Below, piece by piece: positions 4,802 to 60,500 of a stretch of 64,000 bases of DNA. Position 1 is the first letter of the stretch. Every line of letters begins with the position of its first letter. The notes beneath the pieces were generated by a model, which did not search any database, was not told the DNA's origin, and saw nothing but the letters and a program-made list of their open reading frames with translations. Source of the stretch: Thermothelomyces thermophilus ATCC 42464 (Eukaryota > Ascomycota > Sordariomycetes > Sordariales > Chaetomiaceae). The stretch covers positions 2,294,001-2,358,000 of the forward strand of contig NC_016475.1 of NCBI RefSeq assembly GCF_000226095.1, given 5' to 3'. A program made the translations under genes and the position numbers.

Positions 4802-6084
4802 TATTGTTTCTAACTTACGTTTAGACCGATAAAGCCCCCTGGATCAACGCCGGCTTCATCTCCCAGGACACCAAGCGTCTCGGCTGGATGATCGAGGCCC
4901 TCGAGATCGACCCCCACGACAGCGACCACTGGCTGTACGGAACCGGCCTCACCCTCTACGGCGGCCATGACCTTACCAAGTGGGACACCGTGACTCGCAA
5001 CGTCACCATCTCGTCGCTCGCCGCCGGCATCGAGGAGATGGCCGTCCTCGGCCTCGCCTCGCCCCCCAACGGATCCGAACTCCTGGCCGCCGTGGGCGAC
5101 GACTGTGGCTTCACCTTCCGGGAGAGCCAAGACCTCGGCACGTCCCCTCAGACTCCCTGGATGAATCCCATCTGGACTTCGACCACCGACGTCGGTGAGT
5201 ACATCTCTCTATATTCCTCCTCATCCTCCTCATCCCCCCTTTCCTGTCTCCGCTGTTTATGTTGCATCATTGATCCGCTGACCCGCGAGATCCACCCTCC
5301 CTCCTCCCCCCCAAAAAAAGACTACGCCGGCAACGAGCCCGATCACGTCGTCCGCGTCGGCAACTCTCAGGGCGCCCCGCAGGTCGCCGTGTCCGAGGAT
5401 GGCGGCGTGACCTGGAGCGCGCACCCGGGCGCCGACGGCACCACCAACTCGGGCACGCTGGCCTACTCGGCCGACGCGGACACGATCGTCTGGTCGTCTG
5501 GCAGCGCCGGCGTACTCCGCTCCCAGAACCAGGGCGCCTTCGCCGCCGTTGGCTCCCTCCCCTCGGGCGCCACTGTCGCCGCCGACCGGCGCAACAACAC
5601 CGTCTTCTACGCCGCCTCGGGCGCCTCCTTCTACCGCAGCACCGACACGGGCGCCACCTTTGCCAAGGTCGCCTCCGCCTTTGGCAGCAAGGTCGCCGCC
5701 GTCAAAGCCATTGCGGCCCACCCGGTCGTCGCTGGCGAGGTCTGGGTCGCCACCGACGCCGGCCTGTTCCGCAGCATCGACTACGGTGCCACCTTCTCGG
5801 CCGCCTCCGGCAGCATCACCGATGCCATCCAGGTCTCCCTCGGCAAGGGTGATGGCTCCGCCTGGAACGTCTACGTTTTCGGCACGGGCCCCGAGGGCAC
5901 CAAGCTGTACGCCTCGGCCGACGAGGGCGCCACCTGGGTCGACATCCAGGGCGAGCAGGGCTTCGGCTCGCTCTCTGCCAACAGGCTCGTCGGCAGCGGC
6001 AACGTCGCCGGCCAGGTCTACGTCGGCACCAACGGCCGCGGCGTCTTTTACGCCAAGGTATCCCTGTCCGCCGCCGCCAACTAA
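3493..6084 (+). CDS. GH74 xyloglucanase, secreted
   Basis: Glycoside hydrolase family 74 enzymes hydrolyse the beta-1,4-glucan backbone of xyloglucan and are secreted. Four exons (3493-3740, 3849-4722, 4825-5194, 5321-6084) encode 751 residues. Residues 1-23 form a signal peptide (hydrophobic AA/LLL core ending GAATA). Repeated Asp-box-like motifs of the type S-x-D-x-G-x-T-W (for example SSDRGATW, SADGGVTW, STDSGATW, SADEGATW) are those expected of the paired seven-bladed propellers. D56 in YARTDIGGLYR aligns with the catalytic Asp near residue 35 of mature GH74 enzymes. The Asp of DYAGNEPDHVVRVG (about D498, near 475 after cleavage) is the likely second one. The length fits a catalytic module alone; no CBM1 follows. 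Introns 1 and 2 carry (TATC)n/(TA)n microsatellites. It lies tail-to-tail with HIR1. Confidence 0.95.
3745..3802. repeat. (TATC)n-(TA)n microsatellite in GH74 intron 1
   Basis: A tetranucleotide run passes into a TA run inside intron 1 (3741-3848). The branch-like CTAAC lies 3' of it at the acceptor, so the repeat does not disrupt the splice signals. Confidence 0.9.
4763..4797. repeat. (TA)n microsatellite in GH74 intron 2
   Basis: An uninterrupted TA run of about 17 units within the 102-nt intron 4723-4824. Confidence 0.9.
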
Positions 6085-45206: not shown

Positions 45207-45568
45207 GGGTTATGGGTCGGATGATACGGGCGTTTGGACTGGGGAATGGCTATGGTTTCGGGTTCCTTGTTTTGATGTTCCTTTTATTCCTGCTGCTGTG
45301 CCTGTTTCCGTGGGTTTCCGCCCATTGGCGGTGATACTTTTTTCTTTTGATACCTGGCGGGCTATGCCTAACGACCGAGAGATGACCGACTCGTCACACG
45401 ACCTTATCACAATGACAAGGTTTTCTCGTCAGGTTGCCGTTCAGCACACTGCTGCAGCGGACAAGCGGACAAGCAGCGCATCGCTCGTCGCCGTGAGGTG
45501 AATCTGTTGGCGTTTTATTCAGGGAATGAAACCCACTTTGGTGAGATGCCGCGATCGAGATGCCGCGA

Positions 45569-45575
45569 TGAGTCA
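45569..45575. promoter_or_regulatory. TGAGTCA, CPC1-type site with adjoining inverted CCAAT
   Basis: TGAGTCA is followed by TTGG, the same arrangement as at 21707-21717. It lies in the region between the deaminase gene and cpc-1. Confidence 0.3.
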
Positions 45576-46119
45576 TTGGCTTGTCCTTGGTCCTGGACCC
45601 GAGGGCCTGGTCTCATCATGACTTGCCTTCGCTGTTGCTAGCTGGCCAAACCTTGCTGCCGAGGCGGCCCGAGCCCTTAAAAAAATGAAAGCCGAGTCGG
45701 GACGACCCAGCATCAACGTTCTCCAAGCCAGGCCCAATCTCTACGAACCAAAATCTCTACGAACCAAGGGACAACACGGGCAAAAGGCCGCCTTCCCTCC
45801 GACTGTTCCCCAACTCCCTCGGGAATGGCCCGGGAGTGGGTCCGGAGAGTTCCCGGCTGAACGGCAACTTTACAATCCTCGGACGAGGCATGGTTGAGAG
45901 GATCGGGGGAAAGCGGCCGGCTTCCTTGGATACGAGAGGATCGAGGTGTGCTCCTTTCCTGACATGCATGGACTTGCAATACACTCGAGACGTCGTCCGG
46001 TCCGAACCGACTTCAGCATCCTGGGCCACCAATGCAACGGAATTGTCGCAGTGGACCACAGGCAGTCTGGGGCTGCTGCAGATCATCGCGAGGGCTAGGA
46101 TCAGTTTTCTTAGCGAATG

Positions 46120-46126
46120 TGAGTCA
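46120..46126. promoter_or_regulatory. TGAGTCA, CPC1-type site
   Basis: An exact match, about 1.2 kb upstream of the first cpc-1 uORF. Confidence 0.3.
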
Positions 46127-47247
46127 CCAAACTCAATTGCAACATCACGAATGCTCAATTCCAATTGAGCACTTTGATTCGACGGCGATGCCTCGGCCGC
46201 GATTCCCTTAAAAGCACAAGGGACATATTTTCCCTGCGTTGTCCTCGAGCGCGCAGCAACATGCAGCGTGCATCAGGCCGAAGCTTTTGCAGAACCCTGC
46301 GCCAAGCGTGATTATTGTAGAAATTTTGATCGGGTCAGACATATCTCCGCGCGGCCCAGCCAGCAACGAGGACGGAATGCCGACAACTGCGGGGCGATTG
46401 ATCGGGGATTGGTTGGCAACCGAGGTTTGGTGTGATCCGTCCATTGGGATATTCTGGTACGGAGGATTCCGTTATTGCACAGGTGTGCGAAGCCGACGGC
46501 TTTCGCAAGATGCTGCGCGTCTGAAACTCGTGAGGACGGAAGCTGCGCAAGCCCAACCGGGTAGACCAGGGTGCGGAAATCGCTGCCTTTCCCATCCCGC
46601 CCCTTCCATTCTCGTTTCAAGCCCCAAAGCAGTTGAGGACACCTATTGTGCTTGCGTTCTTGCCGCGCAAGCCGGGTTTCGAGGACTGGAGAAGGCAGTC
46701 GATCGCCTTTCCTGTCCGGGGTGTCAATCGCGCGCCCTTTGGAGGCCTGGTTCCGTGCCGTCGGCGTAAGCCTGCCCGCCCTGCCCCTCCAAGCGAATCA
46801 CAGCCGTGGGTCGCCCGTGGACCTAGCGCCTTGGTCCCATTGGCTATTTGCGGACAGATGGGACACACGGTGGGGGCAGTGCAGTGGGTCGCTACAGGAA
46901 AGTACAAAAGTGTGCGGACAAAACCCCTCAAGTTCGGCACCTCAGAGAGACCAAGAAGGATATCTCAATATGACAGGAATGGTTTCCTGGATCTTTTGTG
47001 CCGATTAGATCGAATAGAAACACTAGTTCTAATATATAGTATACAAATGTCGATATCACTTTTATAACAAATTCGAAAATAGTCACTAGCCAACCCGATA
47101 AGGAAATAACATAGTTCGCTGAGCTTATCCAGACCATGGGGTACAGAAACGGTTCCTGAGTGTCCCTCGTGTTTCCTTGCACGACAAGTACGCTAGAACC
47201 TCTTGGGGTCTTGTGGGGAAATTTTCTGGAGCAAGGCCGCGTGGGAG

Positions 47248-47260
47248 GTGTGACTCACAC
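47248..47260. promoter_or_regulatory. GTGTGACTCACAC, probable cpc-1 autoregulatory site
   Basis: TGACTCA (47251-47257) sits inside a 13-nt near-palindrome, 81 nt upstream of the first leader ATG. Autoregulation of cpc-1 through such a site is known for Neurospora; here it is inferred from sequence alone. Confidence 0.55.
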
Positions 47261-47328
47261 TTTCCATTTAGGGCTGCCCGCTGCACTCGGCCAATCAAAT
47301 CACATCGCAGCCTGCAGACCCTATCCGC

Positions 47329-47367
47329 ATGTGCGCGCAAGCCTTGCCGCACTCGCTCGCTGCCTGA
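47329..47367 (+). other. uORF of 12 codons in the cpc-1 leader
   Basis: ATG at 47329 reads MCAQALPHSLAA then TGA. It could be the equivalent of the short first uORF of Neurospora cpc-1 if transcription starts upstream; no start site can be read from sequence. Confidence 0.4.
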
Positions 47368-47475
47368 TAAAAAGTCTTCCAACTCCCCCCAGTTTAGGCT
47401 GCCTGCTCTTCCTCTCCTCCAACCCCAAACTTCCACACAAAGAACAGAGTCAAGCATTTCGAGACAGCCACCAAG

Positions 47476-47484
47476 ATGCGTTAA
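47476..47484 (+). other. Minimal uORF (Met-Arg-stop) in the cpc-1 leader
   Basis: ATG CGT TAA. Its stop lies in the same frame as CPC1 and marks the upstream limit of the open extension that follows. Confidence 0.5.
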
Positions 47485-48177
47485 AGCATCCTTTTCCCCC
47501 GGTCCGACGACTTGCATTTGCAAAGTCGCCAAAATTTCTTCACAAATTTTAGCAACTACCTCCCCGCTCAACAACCACCGACTTCAGTTTCGCCTGCAAA
47601 GGTTGAACTGAACTTAAGCACACTGCTTCCCAGCTCGCGCTCAAGTTCTCAAAACAACACCGCCGCCATTCCCGGCCAAGACTTTCCAGTCTTCACCACG
47701 GATCCCAATCAGTCAAGATGGCTTCCCTCCAGTTCCTCGAGCCTGCCGGCATCATCCGCGCAACAACAGCATCTTCAGCACCTGAATCTGCCGCCTCATC
47801 AGCAAGACTTCGTCTTGTTCGATCAGCCGATCAAGCAGCGTCAACCTAGTCGCTCTGTCTCGCAAGCTTCCGCCACCGGAGGTGTCACTCAAAGTCAGCA
47901 ATACCGTCATCAGCCGTTGTTTCCGCAACAATCGGTCCCGACCTCGCCGTCTCTGCAGAACCAGCGGGTTGCTAGCATCATCCAGGCCACTGGTCACCAA
48001 GCGACGTCTTCGGTTTTCACCAATCGGTTTAGTTCTCCTGCGCAGAATCGTCAGTTCTACGCTTCGTCTGCTCCATCATCGTCGGTCGCTGTGAATCTGC
48101 AGAAGCAGAACCGGCCTGCGCGCCCGCCTGTTCCTCTTTTCTCGCAAAGCACTGGTAACAAGACCCAGCGAGGCAAG
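47485..48177 (+). other. Open, AUG-less N-terminal extension of CPC1
   Basis: 231 codons in the CPC1 frame are free of stops and of ATG. The translation is protein-like and Gln/Ser/Pro-rich with recognisable words (PPHQQDFVLFDQP, RVASIIQATGHQ, NRQFYASSAPSSSVAV, RPPVPLFSQSTGN). Translation from near-cognate codons in such an extension has been shown for Neurospora cpc-1 and is reported to be conserved in Pezizomycotina. Candidates here include TTG at 47512 and many CTG, GTG and ACG codons. The 43-codon uORF at 47718 overlaps it in another frame. Confidence 0.65.
47718..47849 (+). other. uORF of 43 codons in the cpc-1 leader
   Basis: ATG at 47718 begins MASLQFLEPAGII and ends at TAG 47847-47849. 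Its length is close to that of the inhibitory second uORF of Neurospora cpc-1 (41 codons), and its position 328 nt before the main ATG fits the GCN4-type reinitiation scheme. Confidence 0.65.
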
Positions 48178-48954
48178 ATGAACATCCAAGGTAGACACCT
48201 CCCCGCCTCGCCCCTGCCCTCTCGTCCCCAACATTGTGGCTTACACCCCACTTCAGATCTCGATCTGGACGAATTCACCGCCTTCGAGGGTGGTGCTTCC
48301 ACCACGGCGTACTCTTCCCCCGCCCTCGCCAGTGTGTTCGACCTGAGCGCTAGTGCCTCCAGCTCGACAACCACCGTGGGCACCGTCTCGCCCCAGGATC
48401 TCCTGATCCAGGAACCCTTCATGTCGGCGCCGAACTCGACTGCGCTCACGGCTTTGACCTCGCCATCTCTCTATGGCGAGTCGCCGGAGTTTGGTGACGC
48501 CTATGATGTTTCGCCCACGTTTGGAAGTGGGGACTTCGACACCGGATCCACCGACGCTTGGTACCCTCTCTTCCCTCAGGCGAACCCCCGACCTGAGGCG
48601 GCTCCAAAGCCCGCCAGTGCTGAGCAGTCTCCTGCTTCCAAGTCGGATGATTCGGGAGTAGCCTCGGCTCCGGGACATCGTCGCAAGTCATCGGGTACAT
48701 CGCCGCCATCTAGCCGTCCGTCCTCGATCGCCGGTGTTGGTTCTCGCCGTCGCGATAAGCCTCTGCCTCCTATCATTGTTGATGACCCCACTGATGTTGT
48801 TGCCATGAAGCGTGCTCGTAACACACTTGCTGCTCGCAAGTCTCGTGAACGCAAGGCACAGCGTCTTGAGGAGTTGGAGCAACGGATTGTGCAGTTGACG
48901 GCCGAGCGTGACCACTGGAAGAACATTGCGCTCGCGCATGGAGCAAAGGAGTGA
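48178..48954 (+). CDS. cpc-1: CPC1/GCN4-type bZIP regulator of amino-acid control
   Basis: CPC1 activates amino-acid biosynthesis genes under starvation by binding TGACTCA in the nucleus. The main ATG at 48178 reads MNIQ; splicing of a 66-nt intron (48191-48256) continues as DLDLDEFTAFEGGA, giving 236 residues (two exons, 48178-48190 and 48257-48954). The intron length is a multiple of three without stops, so retention would add 22 residues in frame. Activation regions are acidic/aromatic (FEGGASTTAYSSP, FGDAYDVSPTFGSGDFD). The bZIP lies at residues 173-232: basic part KRARNTLAARKSRERKAQR, with the N-x7-R signature, and a short zipper (LEELEQRIVQL) ending AHGAKE. Translation is expected to be controlled by the leader uORFs and Gcn2 signalling. 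Confidence 0.9.
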   Translation: MNIQGRHLPASPLPSRPQHCGLHPTSDLDLDEFTAFEGGASTTAYSSPALASVFDLSASASSSTTTVGTVSPQDLLIQEPFMSAPNSTALTALTSPSLYGESPEFGDAYDVSPTFGSGDFDTGSTDAWYPLFPQANPRPEAAPKPASAEQSPASKSDDSGVASAPGHRRKSSGTSPPSSRPSSIAGVGSRRRDKPLPPIIVDDPTDVVAMKRARNTLAARKSRERKAQRLEELEQRIVQLTAERDHWKNIALAHGAKE

Positions 48955-51209
48955 AAAGTTTTAAAAAAAACTGGTGCTTTGGCTTGGAATGATCGTTTAT
49001 CCTTCAATGTCTGTCGGGCATTGAAGAGGGGATTTTCACTCTCAAGTTTTTTCGTATCTTGGTTAGTTTTCCTAGGTTTCGTGGAGCCACCTTGGTTTCA
49101 CGAGTCTGCCCTTGTCAAAGCAGGCTCCGAATCGAATTTTAAGGTTTTGTCGTTAGTTCGGTCTCTTCTTCGGACCACTGAACAGGGTTTTCCTGCCTTG
49201 CAAGTGTGTATGCACAATTTGGCGTGTCAAATAGATATCGACAAAGGGTTCTTTGCCTCGGCCCTGGCGTGAGATGCTACGACCTGGGTCAGCTAGCTCT
49301 TTGTGGGTCTGCACCCAAGCAATTCATCCGGACCTGGTTGTTATAGTTGAACAATGCACAAACATCCGTCACATGTTCCTCGCCAGTTCTCTGATAGAAT
49401 CACACACCGAACTTGTTTAGCCTTTGATTACCGGTTATCCCATGAATGGAATTGCAATAGCGTATGTATGCGTTTGTACTGTATGTCACTCAGCCGAGGC
49501 GTCATTCAAGTAACCTGCGATGTTGTCCATCATTTCGATCCGTGACTAACTCCGTTCAGCTTCTGAAGCGACTCGAGGGAAGTCAGAGCGTGTGTCACAA
49601 TGTCAACATGTGGACGTACGTGTAGAGTTTCAATTCCAAGAGGAAGAGGAAGCGTTCGGTGAATATGAGCTGTTGCCCTATCCGTTGGTCGAGGAATGCG
49701 CACACACACTTTGTCCGGCGCATTGAACCAATTCTGGACATAGTCACCTGTAAGGCATTTCCAATTTCACATGGACTCCTGGCCAGAAGCCGTCTCGGTG
49801 AGGTAACGTTGCTCAGGCCTATCAACGGTCACGATTTTCTCCTTGTGACATGCTTAATAGTGGCAGTAGTCCCACGTGGATGATGATGGTGATGATGATA
49901 ACAGCTCTGAAGCATTCCACCTGTTGAAGAACACTGCGCAAACGCGCTTGAGAGCACCGATCACCTACTCGGTGCAACGTCTCTCGTGTCCTTTAGAGCG
50001 ATGAGCACTTTTTACTCGGAGAGAGCCTCTCCGTCAAGGTTAGAGGACGGGAGAAGAGAATCTGCTCGTTGGGCACAAGATGGGTATCACACAACATGGC
50101 CGGCCCACTCGGATCACTCCCCCAGCTGAAAGGTTACAGGTCTTTTCGTTTGTATGTATGTATGTACAGTACGTCCGTACATACTAGCCCGTTTAACACC
50201 CCCTCCCCCCTCCCCCTCACACCCACCATCCACGTGCACATCGTATTAACCGCAATTGCTTCTCGAACACGCCCAAAGAGCGTCAGTTTCCAGAATTACA
50301 AGCTTGGCTGCTCAACTCTTCATACCAAACCCGGCAAGCTCACATTTTTGTATATTCCTTGACACATTCGATAGGCCACAAGAAGCAAAGCCGTGGCAAT
50401 TCTAAAGCCAGCCATCAACCATTTTGCATTCAAGCCATCTCCAATGTCATCAACAAAGTCCAACACAGCCATCGACAAGTACCTAAATCTACCAGACACA
50501 CCGGGGGAAGAGACAATGAGAAGAAAAAAAAGAAAAAGAAGCCCCCCAAAACCAGGCCAAGGAAGGAAGAGGGCATTGGGTCCTAAGGAAATGAAGACTG
50601 GGCAGAATCGGCAAGGGAACAGCGATTGACCATCCGAGTTGCTGAGTTCAGTCCAAGTCTATACCGGCGCAGTGCTGCTTGCTTGACTCCCTTGCAGTCC
50701 CTCATCGTCTTTGCACCTCGGTCCATCAAAGTTTGTTTTCTTCCCCCCTTCAATATCTGAGCATGCTTCGTTCATCTCGTTCCCGGTTTGGTTTGGTCGG
50801 TACCCCTTAACACTACTATGTCGAACCATACCACATGCCATACCCCCAATTACCACATCACGCCGAGCCATGTCGTGCCATGCAGAAAGGCAACCAGAAA
50901 AAAATTCACAAGACAAAGCAACGCCGCGCCATCTTTTAACCCCGCCCTGTGCTCCTTTGGTGTCTTCCTCCTGACAAACTCCTATGCAAGCCTATGCAAG
51001 CAAGCAACCATGTCCGTTCAGACCAGAAGGGAAGTAGTTCTACAGATACAGTCCCGGTTCGAATACTTGAGGCATTGCACATCCGCCATTAAAGAAGCCT
51101 AACTTGTCGATTCTCAGTTAGACCGTAAGCGAAAGGGTATCGTGTCGTCAGTGGGAAAAACAAAGTGATGCCACCCGTTATTTGGTGGTGAGGAAACAAT
51201 GAGCGAGCC
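48955..51209. other. Intergenic region between convergent cpc-1 and a Ser-rich gene
   Basis: 3' flanks of both genes; a TGATGG-type repeat near 49881-49898 and TATGTATGTAC-type words near 50151-50166. No gene is supported. Confidence 0.6.
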
Positions 51210-54539: not shown

Positions 54540-57500
54540 CCCAACCGCGGCGGCAGCGGTAGCAGTGCCGGTCCCCGCAAGCTGTGTTATCCAGGCCGGT
54601 TAGCATTCGTGATGTATCGCGCTTCCCAGAGGGCATACTCCGGGTAGCGGAAAGAAGGGCAAGGAGGTATTGTGCTTTGTGATCAGGCCGGGATTTGAAA
54701 GCAAAATCGGGCCCGACATGGTTCGTTTGCACTCTTGATTTGCGCTTCTGCCCGGTGCATTGCACGGTTTTGCTGGTCGACACTTACACTCGGCACGGCC
54801 TGCATCCTGAATGCGGGCTGTTATGTTGACGGCAAGCAGCCGTGGGAGCGAAGAGGGGCAGGGAACTCGGTGATTATGAAAGTCGTAGTTTGCATCGTCA
54901 GGGCATGACGGGAAGGGAGACGTCTTGAGGCGGAAACGAAGGGTCGAAGTACGCGGATCGCCAATGCTGCAGGCGCGTTCCCGCAGTCGAGGTTCGAAGC
55001 GCCTAACTTTCGGAAACGGATCAGGCCTGCGAAAGCACTCCGACCTGTGCGCCGAAATTCCGTCTCTGGCGAAATGGGGAATTATGCACCCAACCGGCCG
55101 TTTTGGCGAGCTCGAATACCGCGTAGTGCTGTTGGGAAACCAGGGCGTCGAGTCAGCGGGGGAGAGATGCGGTCGGCGTCGCTGCGCGCAGCAGTTGTCG
55201 GCGGAGGCAGTTCACAACAACTGATGCTACTGCCCGTTGACTTGTTTTCGCGGCGAGCTGCAATTGGCGCCAGACGAAAAGTTGGCCGCGTCAAGATGGG
55301 ACAATGGTCGCGACCGTGGGCCTCGCGCACACGTTCCTCTCTTCTCTCGCTTTAATCCGGGGAAGGAGCTACGTCCGCCCACCAACGCCGAACCAAAACA
55401 GAGAAGCCAGAACCCGCTTCAGAGACGCGACACGGGCAGGCGCACCGGACACTCAGTGGGTCTTCGCAAAAAACATGCTAAAAGAAGGGAAAGCTCGTCC
55501 TGGCAAAGCCGTCGGAGCAAAGAGGAAAGAATGAAAGGAAAACCAGAGCTGGAGAAGAAGACAGACGCGCACAACCAAGTTTGGGCGAGCGGCAGTCTAC
55601 AGTTGCACTCTGCACTCGACAAGTTGGAAGAGTGGGTGTAACAACATGGGGAGCCTGTCCAAGCGCCGGGGGGTTCTTGTTGCTGCACTACACTACGATG
55701 AAGATACGGATCCGTACGCTACCTCCGGAAGGAAGAGTGGAGAACGCTGCACTCCCTACCTTAGGCTAGTGCGAGTAGTGAGGAGCGTAGGGCGGCGTGA
55801 GCTTGTTTTGACACTGACGTGCTGACAGGGGATGGAGACGGCTGAGGCCTGGCCAGGCTTGGTTGTTCGGGAGAACACCGATTGCCAGGATTGGCTCTCA
55901 GATCGTCGCTTCTTTCGGGTATCGGTATCGGGGGCCCCATGCCCCTGGACAACAACAAACCAAAGTTACGCAGTACACTACGGATAACTCCGTATCGCAC
56001 AAACACAAAGGCTCGCCTTGGCCTCCAAGCTGCTGTGTTCACTCATTTAACTCTGGGCGACCAACAGGCTGGAACGTACGGTACACACAGGGCTGCACGG
56101 CGCTTCCTCTAATCTCGATGAGCTGCCTGTTTTGATGAGAGATGCAGCGCTGTATGTATGTACATACATCTCGCTACGCGCTTGCGCATTACGGAGCGCC
56201 CAGGCGCACACCACCAGGTCCAGTCGGTCAGCTCGTGCAGGAAATTTGACCCGCCAAAAGTTCACTATAAACGTCGGCTTCGAGATCAATTCATGGGTAG
56301 CCAGTCATCCAGCGCCGTCGCACCAACATGCAACTGCACCAGCGCCTCCCTTAACGTATCAGGCTAGAGGAAACGAATTCCACTGGCGAGGCTGCCACAC
56401 AATCCGCCACTCCTGAACCAGAGCCGCTGATGATTGTCATTGTGTGATCCGCAGGTGTGTTGAGTTGCAAAGTACTGTACATACATACATATGGATTACA
56501 AGGAATTTTGGGGGAAGGCTGAATTAGATCCGCCGCCGGGTCCGCCGAGAGTTTTCGTCGTCTTGGTAATGTATCGGGGTGGATCTCTCGACATGCCCAA
56601 CGTTGTCATGTCCATCAGACACAACAACGCATGTGCAAGCCTCGGGGCCGAATACAAGATCGCGTACTTCAAGTATTTATTGGCGTTCGTCAATATACGT
56701 AAATATCCCCATGGCAATAGCAACTGCCAACCCGCAAGTGTACAGATGTATGTACTTATGAATGTGTCCATACCATATGTTTGAATGAATGCATGTACAT
56801 ACATACCTTACGGATGACAGGAATTTCGTTTATTATACCTGTAAATACATAGATACGTAGGTACCAACCCGGTCCAGGAGCAACGGAGAGAGTCTTCTGA
56901 GCCAGGGCGCGGAGGCCGGCTCGGGAATTCCACAGCATCGCAGGGCATTCAATTACTGTACACTAGAAGATCCACCCAAACCCGATCCACCCGATCCTTC
57001 CAAGGCACGGCACAACGCCCCAGTGTCAGTGGACAATGGAAGCATGAGGCCATGCGAACCATGCAGGGCAGGCATGACTGCCGGGAACGCGAAACAGTCT
57101 TACAATGCTGCATTAGCGAATGACGGTCTCGGAAGCCGACTCCCAAGGTCCATCCCGCCAGTTGCCATGGATAGCTTTGTCCGTACCACAGTATGTAATA
57201 TTCCCAGTCCCATGGGCGACGACGCGACCCTCCATCTCCACATTCCCTTCAAGATGACGTCGACTATCCATCAGCCTTGCTACCATATGTCTCGAGAGCG
57301 GGCATGCAGCTCACGTTTCCGAAATTGGCCTGCAAAACATGCCATGCTCACTCTCATTTCTCAACTACTGAAGAATGGCCCGATGTTCATCCTAGAACAG
57401 GAATAACCAACGAATGGATATCAAGTTCGGCGAAGCGATTATCGGAACCAGCCCAGTTATGGAAACGGCTCTGACACAAGATGTGTAATAGTTCCGCGAA

Positions 57501-60500
57501 GTTGTTGATCTGTGTGTTACTACCGAGTAACCTCCTGCCAATAACTGAGCTGCCCAGCTCCATAGGAGAGCAGTGATCCAAAGCGTTCCTCGAACACGGG
57601 TTCCCACATTCTGCCCCGCGGCATGTTGTAAGCGCACTGTCAGCAACCAAAACATCCCGAACAGCACGGGTTCAATCACTCGGCACATTCTATACCTACA
57701 GGTAGCGTACATGCACATCCATGATGCGTGTACACATGTAGAGCATGTGTTTGTCGGTGAGACCCTCGCAGCTGGAAAGTTTCATCCCCCCGTTCAGGAC
57801 CCCTCCATGGCCTCCGGCACACTCCAGCTGCAAAACTTCAATAAGGTTGGGACATCCGCATCCTGGCAACCCGGCTTCGTTGGCGACGGTCAGATGAGAC
57901 GATGTAAAATAGTTTTTTTTGATAACTATTAAACAAGGCATGTGCCTGTCGTTTTACCCAGCTTTTATTTTCCCAACCTGCGGCTCGGATTCCTACCCGC
58001 ACTCACCTCTGCTCATTGATGTCTCAAGCCAGGTGACCGACACCTCATGCGGCCTCGAGTGTCGCATCGAAATGGTCATGGAGATTTAGGCAAGACAGCT
58101 CCACCACAATAGACCAGGAACCGCCGGGGATGTCCGGCCTTCCGCATAACGGTTTCCGATTCCATTTGCTCTGGCGCGGACATCTACATACTATTACATA
58201 TTTTGGCGACAGGTCCCTGTCCTTGCTCGGCCGAAAACTTGGTCATTATTGCCTAAGAGTATTTATTCTCTCTCCGCTCTAAAGCACTCTCCATCAAGCA
58301 CACAACAGACGTTCCCATGCTCGTGGCACAATACACTGCAGTCGCTGTTCCGCAGAAGAAAAGAAGAAGAAAAAAGAGTTAACTCTGCTGCAAGACAGCC
58401 CGCGCTGAGCGGAATGAGCAGAAGGCTGGAGACGCGGCAATACGGTGCTGTTGCTACACGGCCGGCCGGGCATCTGCTTTGCTTGTCTTATACTAGTACA
58501 TCACGTATAGTAGCACCCTCGGCCGAGCTACCGTAACTCAAGTGCTCACCCAGCCTTTGAGACTTGAGAGGTTGGGGGGGGGGGGACGGGGGAGGAGGGG
58601 AGGGGAGGAAGGGGGCTAGGGGCGAGGACGACTTCATGGAATCGTTGTTGATGCCGTATGCCCTCCATCGTGTCACCCTGTGAGCGAAGTTTGATGGTTT
58701 GACCACAAGCCGGCGCCCTGTGACACCCACAATGGATTCTTCTTGTTTTTTTCCTTCCCCCCGTCAAGGACAAACAACGACGTTCCAGATTAGCAACATA
58801 GTTGTGTGAGGTAGTCTTAGAAGCGTTGTACAGGACGAGTGTTTCGTTCGTGCTCTTTCCCCGTCGTCCTATCAAACCGACCGCGTCGAATTACTCCGTA
58901 TATAGTATGCAGCTCAGACCTCTGCAACGCATCAAGCCGTCCCGCTTCACCATGGACCCGCTGCCGTATACTCCGTAGCCATTGTTGCGTATACCTCAGC
59001 TTGTCCCGGGAGTCTTCCCAAGGGTTGTGCACGATATATTGATCACACGCGGGATCACAAATCTTCAACTAGGCCAATTGTCATGGAAAAGCGGGCCAGG
59101 GCAAAGGTTAAAGAGCGGGAGTTTGAGCAGCTTCCCCGTCGGGTCTTCGCATGTGCAAGAAGAGCCCAAGGAGATTTCCTCTAAGAACCGAAAAGCCACC
59201 ATTCACTGTAGCAAGCCTGGTGCCTGGTAAGCTTTCCGTCCGCGGCAACGCATCCCGTGAATGTCTGGGAACATCTAGGAACAGATCGCCCAGCGGCGGA
59301 GGAGCTGAAACAGAAAGAGAGGGTTGCTCCTTCGACGTGGAAGGCTGGCTTCTGCAGGGAAGTGCAACAGCGGAGAAGAAACATCCAGCACCAGGCGTGT
59401 TCGTACATACCCTCTAAGCCTTTCTCAGTTCTCTGCTATGTTTCCGTACCTAAAAAGACATCCTGGGATAAGCCTGGTGCCGGCTCTCTTCTTCAGGAAC
59501 CATAAGAGATACTTTGTGAAATGTGAGTTTCAATGCTTATTGAAGACACCATTGCAGGCAAATGACCCTATCTCATCAAAGAAGAGCCAAGCGTGCCAGG
59601 GCTGATGAATGTTCCGAGTCCTCAGGGAACTGCTTTGCCCGGGTTGGATCCGGATAGGGGCTGCAGCGACTTCAGTCACACCTATTACCAATCCGGTCAC
59701 CCGGTGACCGAAAAGCGAAACGACCCGCCGATTCCACGCAGGCAATATTTCCCCAGGGGCGAATTGGGTCTCGATTGAGCCGCAAGGGCAACCGCATCAT
59801 GCGCTCGCAAAATGCTGTAGCAAATGGCATAGGGTCGCGTCAGAAGTTACCAACAGATTGCCGTCTGCAGGGACAGCCCCGGCTGAACGGGATTGAGGAG
59901 TTGACCTGAGGTGATGCGATCGCGTTTCCGATTGGCGAGGTGTAACACGTCGACGCGGAATCGCGTTACTAGGCCGAGCCGCGTTTAAATTGCGAAGGCA
60001 CCCATTTTTTTCCAAAAAAAAAATTGTCAAGCTGGCCATACATGGCCAAGTTCTTCCGAAGCTGGGTCATTCGTAAGTGTACGGAATACACGAAATACAC
60101 GAAATACGCTGGTTTCCTTAAAGGTTGTATGCAGTCGGGAGGAACGCAGCCAGGATTACGGACGTAGTGGTACCATAGAGCTTATATGTACGGATTATGC
60201 TCCAGCGCGACAAGCGCCGAGCACCCGCATCCTGACCAACCAGACCTTAGCAAGTTGCCAGTTGTTTGACGGCTGCAGGAGAACGGCAGTTTCAGCCACA
60301 GGCAGAATCACTTGTCCCACCACCTGAAATTCGCCCCGCCTGCAGCTTGCCAGGTGCCATTTCCAAAAATCAGGTACCTACCAAGTACTCCGAGGACCAG
60401 GGCATACAGATTGCACTAGAGATTGCACTAGGGCACCACGAGCTTGGGTTCAAACATCCCAATTCGGCAAGAGGGTGTGCGCTCACTACAAACCCGTGAT

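Follow-up and report, generated by a model that had tools for sequence, protein, structure and literature searches.

The closest described system is cpc-1 of Neurospora crassa and its homologues in the Pezizomycotina (PMC5487733). In 100 Pezizomycotina cpc-1 genes the leader contains two upstream open reading frames, uORF1 with 3–6 codons and uORF2 with 35–70 codons, and all uORF2s analysed are situated in the −1 frame relative to CPC1 (PMC5487733). In N. crassa extracts uORF1 permits reinitiation and uORF2 represses. The near-cognate codons NCC5 to NCC8 initiate in vitro, loss of any of NCC1 to NCC4, the four candidates furthest 5′, has no detectable effect, and no toeprints at near-cognate codons are reported. 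In vivo, N. crassa leader footprints outside the uORFs are found in the CPC1 frame, with a near-cognate reporter output of <1% of the main AUG output (PMC5487733).

The codons themselves are widely shared among the 100 sequences. CUG (NCC6) is present in 77 (four of them UUG), AUU (NCC7) in 74 (ten as AUC or AUA) and ACG (NCC8) in 98, every one with A at −3 and G at +4; in N. crassa the sequence GTCTTC is found directly 5′ of NCC8 (PMC5487733). The arrangement has thus been known for cpc-1 of related fungi since 2017 (PMC5487733), and the locus reported here is an ordinary further example.

The CPC1 locus and its open leader frame

The locus is found in a 64,000-nucleotide stretch of Thermothelomyces thermophilus ATCC 42464 (termed the window, whose positions are used throughout). 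It is very probably a cpc-1 gene (a GCN4 homologue) with a Pezizomycotina leader, in which near-cognate starts yield a CPC1 of about 396–426 residues that bypasses uORF2. The main features are as follows.

47476–47484, + strand: uORF1, Met-Arg-stop (ATG CGT TAA), 3 codons, in the CPC1 frame; context ACCAAGATGCG, A at −3
47485–48177, + strand: CPC1 N-terminal extension frame, 231 codons, 0 stops, no in-frame ATG
47718–47849, + strand: uORF2, 44 codons with stop, −1 frame relative to CPC1; A at −3, G at +4
48178–48190, + strand: main ATG and exon 1 (MNIQ plus one base); context GGCAAGATGAA
48191–48256, + strand: probable intron of 66 bases (GTAGAC ... GCTTAC ... TTCAG), from sequence only
48257–48954, + strand: CPC1 exon 2 with the C-terminal bZIP domain; main protein of 236 aa

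The main open reading frame, 258 codons when unspliced, carries a C-terminal bZIP of GCN4 type according to both Pfam and structure matches. The score for bZIP_2 (PF07716) is 25.5 bits, above the cut-off of 22.3, and that for bZIP_1 (PF00170) is 25.4 bits, under the cut-off of 27.6. GCN4 is the best match among solved structures (2dgc_A, E-value = 1.1e-09). Removal of the probable intron gives the 236-residue protein. The intron is itself in frame and free of stops, thus its retention would yield a CPC1 of 258 residues.

An earlier reading, made from the sequence alone, had stated that the bZIP frame is open and without ATG for 231 codons, from a Met-Arg-stop uORF to the ATG at 48178, and that the main form has 236 residues. 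The first statement is exact by frame scan, and the second holds with the probable intron removed. The first in-frame stop 5′ of the main ATG is the TAA at 47482–47484, which is the end of uORF1. Because uORF1 shares the CPC1 frame, the extension can reach no further 5′ than this stop and is limited to 231 codons. This nearest CPC1-frame stop begins 236 bases 5′ of the uORF2 ATG; the frame is stop-free from there to the main ATG, and the 231 codons compare with a threshold of at least 160. The other two plus frames of the same region show 4 and 6 stops and the minus frames 6, 16 and 10. Of the 231 residues encoded, 40 are S, 33 Q and 25 P.

The sequence-only reading also gave uORF1 correctly but omitted uORF2, which overlaps the extension and probably explains what the long form is for. 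Its maximum of about 467 residues for CPC1 is the correct sum of 231 and 236 but is a stop-to-stop upper bound; the counterparts of the conserved starts would lead to 426 or 421, 406 and 396 residues. Its comparison with the near-cognate architecture of Neurospora cpc-1 and the Pezizomycotina (PMC5487733) is borne out, with the specific parts of that architecture present in the window. The two uORFs, with 3 and 44 codons, fall within the published ranges of 3–6 and 35–70 (stops included), and the −1 frame of uORF2 agrees with all published analysed cases.

The seven bases CAAGATG are common to the ATGs of uORF1 (47472–47478), uORF2 (47714–47720) and the main open reading frame (48174–48180).

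Near-cognate codons between the uORFs

The CPC1 frame displays eight near-cognate codons between the two uORFs: ATC, two TTG, AAG, two CTG, ATT and ACG. Four are candidate counterparts of the N. crassa initiation codons.

47608–47610, + strand: CTG in frame, G at −3, candidate NCC6 counterpart; would give 426 aa
47623–47625, + strand: CTG in frame, A at −3, candidate NCC6 counterpart; would give 421 aa
47668–47670, + strand: ATT in frame (gccgccATTc), candidate NCC7 counterpart; would give 406 aa
47698–47700, + strand: ACG in frame, A at −3 and G at +4, NCC8 counterpart; would give 396 aa

Thus a CUG (NCC6), an AUU (NCC7) and an ACG with A at −3 and G at +4 (NCC8) are all found 5′ of uORF2. 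The sequence GTCTTC (47689–47694) ends three bases 5′ of the ACG at 47698. Codons were matched to the NCCs by order, context and GTCTTC, not by alignment, and either CTG may represent NCC6. When 47485–47717 was shuffled 20,000 times, an in-frame ACG with A at −3 and G at +4 was present in 599 shuffles, the same with an ATT upstream in 239, and with a CTG upstream of the ATT in 46. By homology, CPC1 forms of 426 or 421, 406 and 396 residues are most likely produced besides the 236-residue form.

Openness and codon usage of the extension

Openness was compared with two chance models, dinucleotide shuffles of the extension region (n = 20,000) and a first-order model built on flanks regarded as non-coding. 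The CPC1 frame is also open in 626 of the 20,000 composition-preserving shuffles (3%), and at least one of the three frames in 1,955. Under the first-order model, 231 open codons have a probability of about 2.7e-4. Three ORF-poor stretches (45210–47475, 48955–51200 and 54610–60420) served as controls; on both strands, none of 16,488 placements shows 231-codon openness, and no run exceeds 200 codons, the longest observed. Across all six frames, the 64-kb window contains 51 stop-to-stop runs of at least 231 codons, genes and non-genes together, thus length alone is no proof of coding. Openness alone is weak evidence for coding.

The last of the control stretches, 54610–60420, is nearly 6 kb long and has no listed ORF of at least 150 aa on either strand; its longest stop-free run is 200 codons.

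The codon table was trained on 3,801 codons from six long ORFs with introns left in; five of these show a Pfam match above cut-off and one (4888–6084) has matches below. Over the whole extension the CPC1 frame scores best, with 9 of 1000 shuffles as good (18 of 1000 for the synonymous part alone), and the remaining two frames are random-like in full score (874 and 806 of 1000). The CPC1 frame leads the next one by 0.1203, a slightly larger margin than in any of 330 overlapping control windows (maximum 0.1195), and the best-frame score is matched or exceeded in 8 of these 330, which overlap heavily. By segment the signal is weak: 79 of 1000 shuffles are as good 5′ of the ACG, 347 of 1000 from the ACG to the end of uORF2, and 47 of 1000 after uORF2. 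Where the extension overlaps uORF2, synonymous codons favour a third frame (20/1000), and in the 3′ flank, regarded as non-coding, one frame attains 38/1000. The undisputed exon 2 shows no synonymous signal either (317/1000), and the codon profile reported for N. crassa cpc-1 is unusual and non-optimal (PMC7554675); for both reasons the codon test is blunt for this gene. Codon usage modestly favours the CPC1 frame. The layout of the leader, with its uORFs and near-cognate codons, is the stronger line of evidence.

Candidate conserved peptide patches

Two peptides of the extension are situated where conserved patches are described. Both were likened to the published patches by position, not by comparing residues.

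47803–47829, + strand: QDFVLFDQP, CPC1 frame, within uORF2; possible counterpart of the published best-conserved patch overlapping uORF2
48130–48150, + strand: VPLFSQS, CPC1 frame; starts exactly 16 codons 5′ of the main ATG

A published conserved 7-codon stretch likewise begins 16 codons 5′ of the main AUG, and in those authors' fungal cpc-1 alignment dN/dS is 0.348 between NCC8 and the main AUG vs 0.144 in the main open reading frame (PMC5487733). A search of bacterial and archaeal contigs with the extension gave 166 pattern matches, none confirmed, and of viral contigs with the whole 489-codon frame 5 pattern matches, again none confirmed. The peptides DFVLFD, PPVPLFS, VPLFSQS and QDFVLF gave no match in a literature text search.

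A primer from the Leptosphaeria maculans cpcA paper (PMC3199737), which by eye reads SPQDFV in one frame, was considered as a relative of QDFVLFD and rejected. Its placement is ambiguous, as the main open reading frame here also has SPQDLL. In addition, the names in the primer table seem out of register.

Alternative explanations

The frame may be open by composition and history alone, the leader being C-rich and stop-poor, with upstream initiation as noise that gives no useful product. The 626 open shuffles, the 51 equally long runs in the window, the weak codon signal by segment and the reporter yield of <1% in N. crassa in vivo (PMC5487733) are all consistent with this, but the set of near-cognate codons and their contexts argue against it, and this explanation is considered unlikely. 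Still less probable is an extended product that arises without near-cognate starts, by +1 (or −2) frameshifting of ribosomes translating uORF2. The frame relation is suitable, since relative to CPC1 uORF2 occupies the −1 frame here, as in all published analysed cases, and the authors of the 2017 study named the possibility themselves (PMC5487733). However, elimination of NCC5, 6, 7 or 8 led to loss of specific products in N. crassa, although the larger products were reduced but still present when all four NCCs were removed (PMC5487733), and uORF2 here shows by eye no slippery heptamer of the CTT-AGG type.

Alternative splicing that skips the main ATG could also join the extension to CPC1. Frame-keeping pairs do exist: the acceptor at 48256 can be joined with a donor at 47894 (363 bases, 47894–48256) or at 48050 (207 bases, 48050–48256). 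But the donors appear weak by eye (GTCAGC and GTCAGT) and depend on the branch-like site at 48240, the branch-like patterns tried being found nowhere else in 47401–48300. Either event would remove the main ATG and leave only non-AUG starts, and translation would again depend on a start codon further 5′. This route is judged very improbable, on a par with frameshifting.

Proposed expression of the extended CPC1

Initiation at near-cognate codons 5′ of uORF2 is the preferred reading. Scanning ribosomes would mostly translate uORF1 and, under plentiful amino acids, reinitiate at uORF2, so that little 236-residue CPC1 is made. Some ribosomes may initiate between the uORFs in the CPC1 frame, at the CTG at 47608 or 47623, the ATT at 47668 or the ACG at 47698. 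These would cross uORF2 in another frame and yield an extended CPC1 of about 396–426 residues. As such forms start 5′ of uORF2, they would escape its repression.

The S/Q/P-rich composition and the short hydrophobic motifs suggest that the extension is probably disordered, with motifs that may modulate activation or stability. It is conceivable, though rather doubtful, that the long CPC1 is functionally distinct, with QDFVLFD and VPLFSQS as extra activation or stability elements, and that it is formed even when uORF2 silences the short form. One mRNA would then give a basal long factor and a short factor induced by starvation.

The locus is a further case of a central amino-acid-starvation regulator with a putative hidden extension, started from non-AUG codons and overlapping a regulatory uORF that is read in a different frame. 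Gene prediction that requires an ATG would miss 160–190 residues.

Comparison with other bZIP leaders

The leader of S. cerevisiae GCN4, likewise a bZIP homologue under uORF reinitiation control, carries four uORFs. GCN4 has no analogous N-terminal extension according to PMC5487733. The mammalian C/EBP beta (PMC5487733) and ATF4 (PMC5972666) are bZIP proteins as well, with alternative starts or uORF control that responds to eIF2 phosphorylation. Their leaders are not known to be homologous to that of cpc-1. In ATF4, uORF2 extends across the main ORF start (PMC5972666).

The likeness to N. crassa cpc-1 is closer. Both loci have a short uORF1, a uORF2 in the −1 frame and about 700 bases 5′ of the main AUG that are open in the CPC1 frame; both display CTG, ATT and ACG in order 5′ of uORF2, with the ACG after GTCTTC, and a C-terminal bZIP. 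However, uORF1 is in the CPC1 frame here but in frame 2 in N. crassa, and the N. crassa CPC1 frame is open to the mapped 5′ end, whereas here it is bounded by the uORF1 stop (PMC5487733). The difference in the frame of uORF1 shows that the locus is distinct from that N. crassa sequence. Two uORFs and a long in-frame extension, with lengths that vary, are also described for further Pezizomycotina cpc-1/cpcA genes (the 100 sequences of PMC5487733; L. maculans, PMC3199737). The L. maculans cpcA gene is described as intronless (PMC3199737), in contrast to the probable 66-base intron found here after codon 4.

A search for studies from 2018 on that test the CPC1 extension, covering few subscription journals and judged mostly by how papers were listed, found none. 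The Cochliobolus Cpc1 paper (PMC12345223) contains none of the five terms tried for uORFs and start codons, and the available portions of PMC11550727, PMC7049704 and PMC5676045 add nothing on the cpc-1 leader to PMC5487733.

Candidate promoter-side elements

Two candidate elements are found 5′ of uORF1.

47251–47257, + strand: TGACTCA, match to the CPRE motif, about 220 bases 5′ of uORF1
47366–47374, + strand: TATA-like sequence GATAAAAAG, read by eye

A transcript that starts just 3′ of the TATA-like sequence would include uORF1, uORF2 and the extension. The CPC-1/CPRE binding motif is given as TGA(C/G)TCA (PMC7554675), and autoregulation through CPRE is reported for Aspergillus nidulans cpcA (PMC3199737). 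Sites of the TGACTCA type are not enriched in the window, with 7 matches vs 7.52 expected by chance, thus the site at 47251 is not significant alone. Searches of the whole window with Rfam (at the gathering threshold) and ARAGORN gave no hits.

A 13-codon open reading frame (stop included) extends from 47329 to 47367, and its ATG is situated just 5′ of the TATA-like sequence. With transcription from a more 5′ start, it would form a third uORF.
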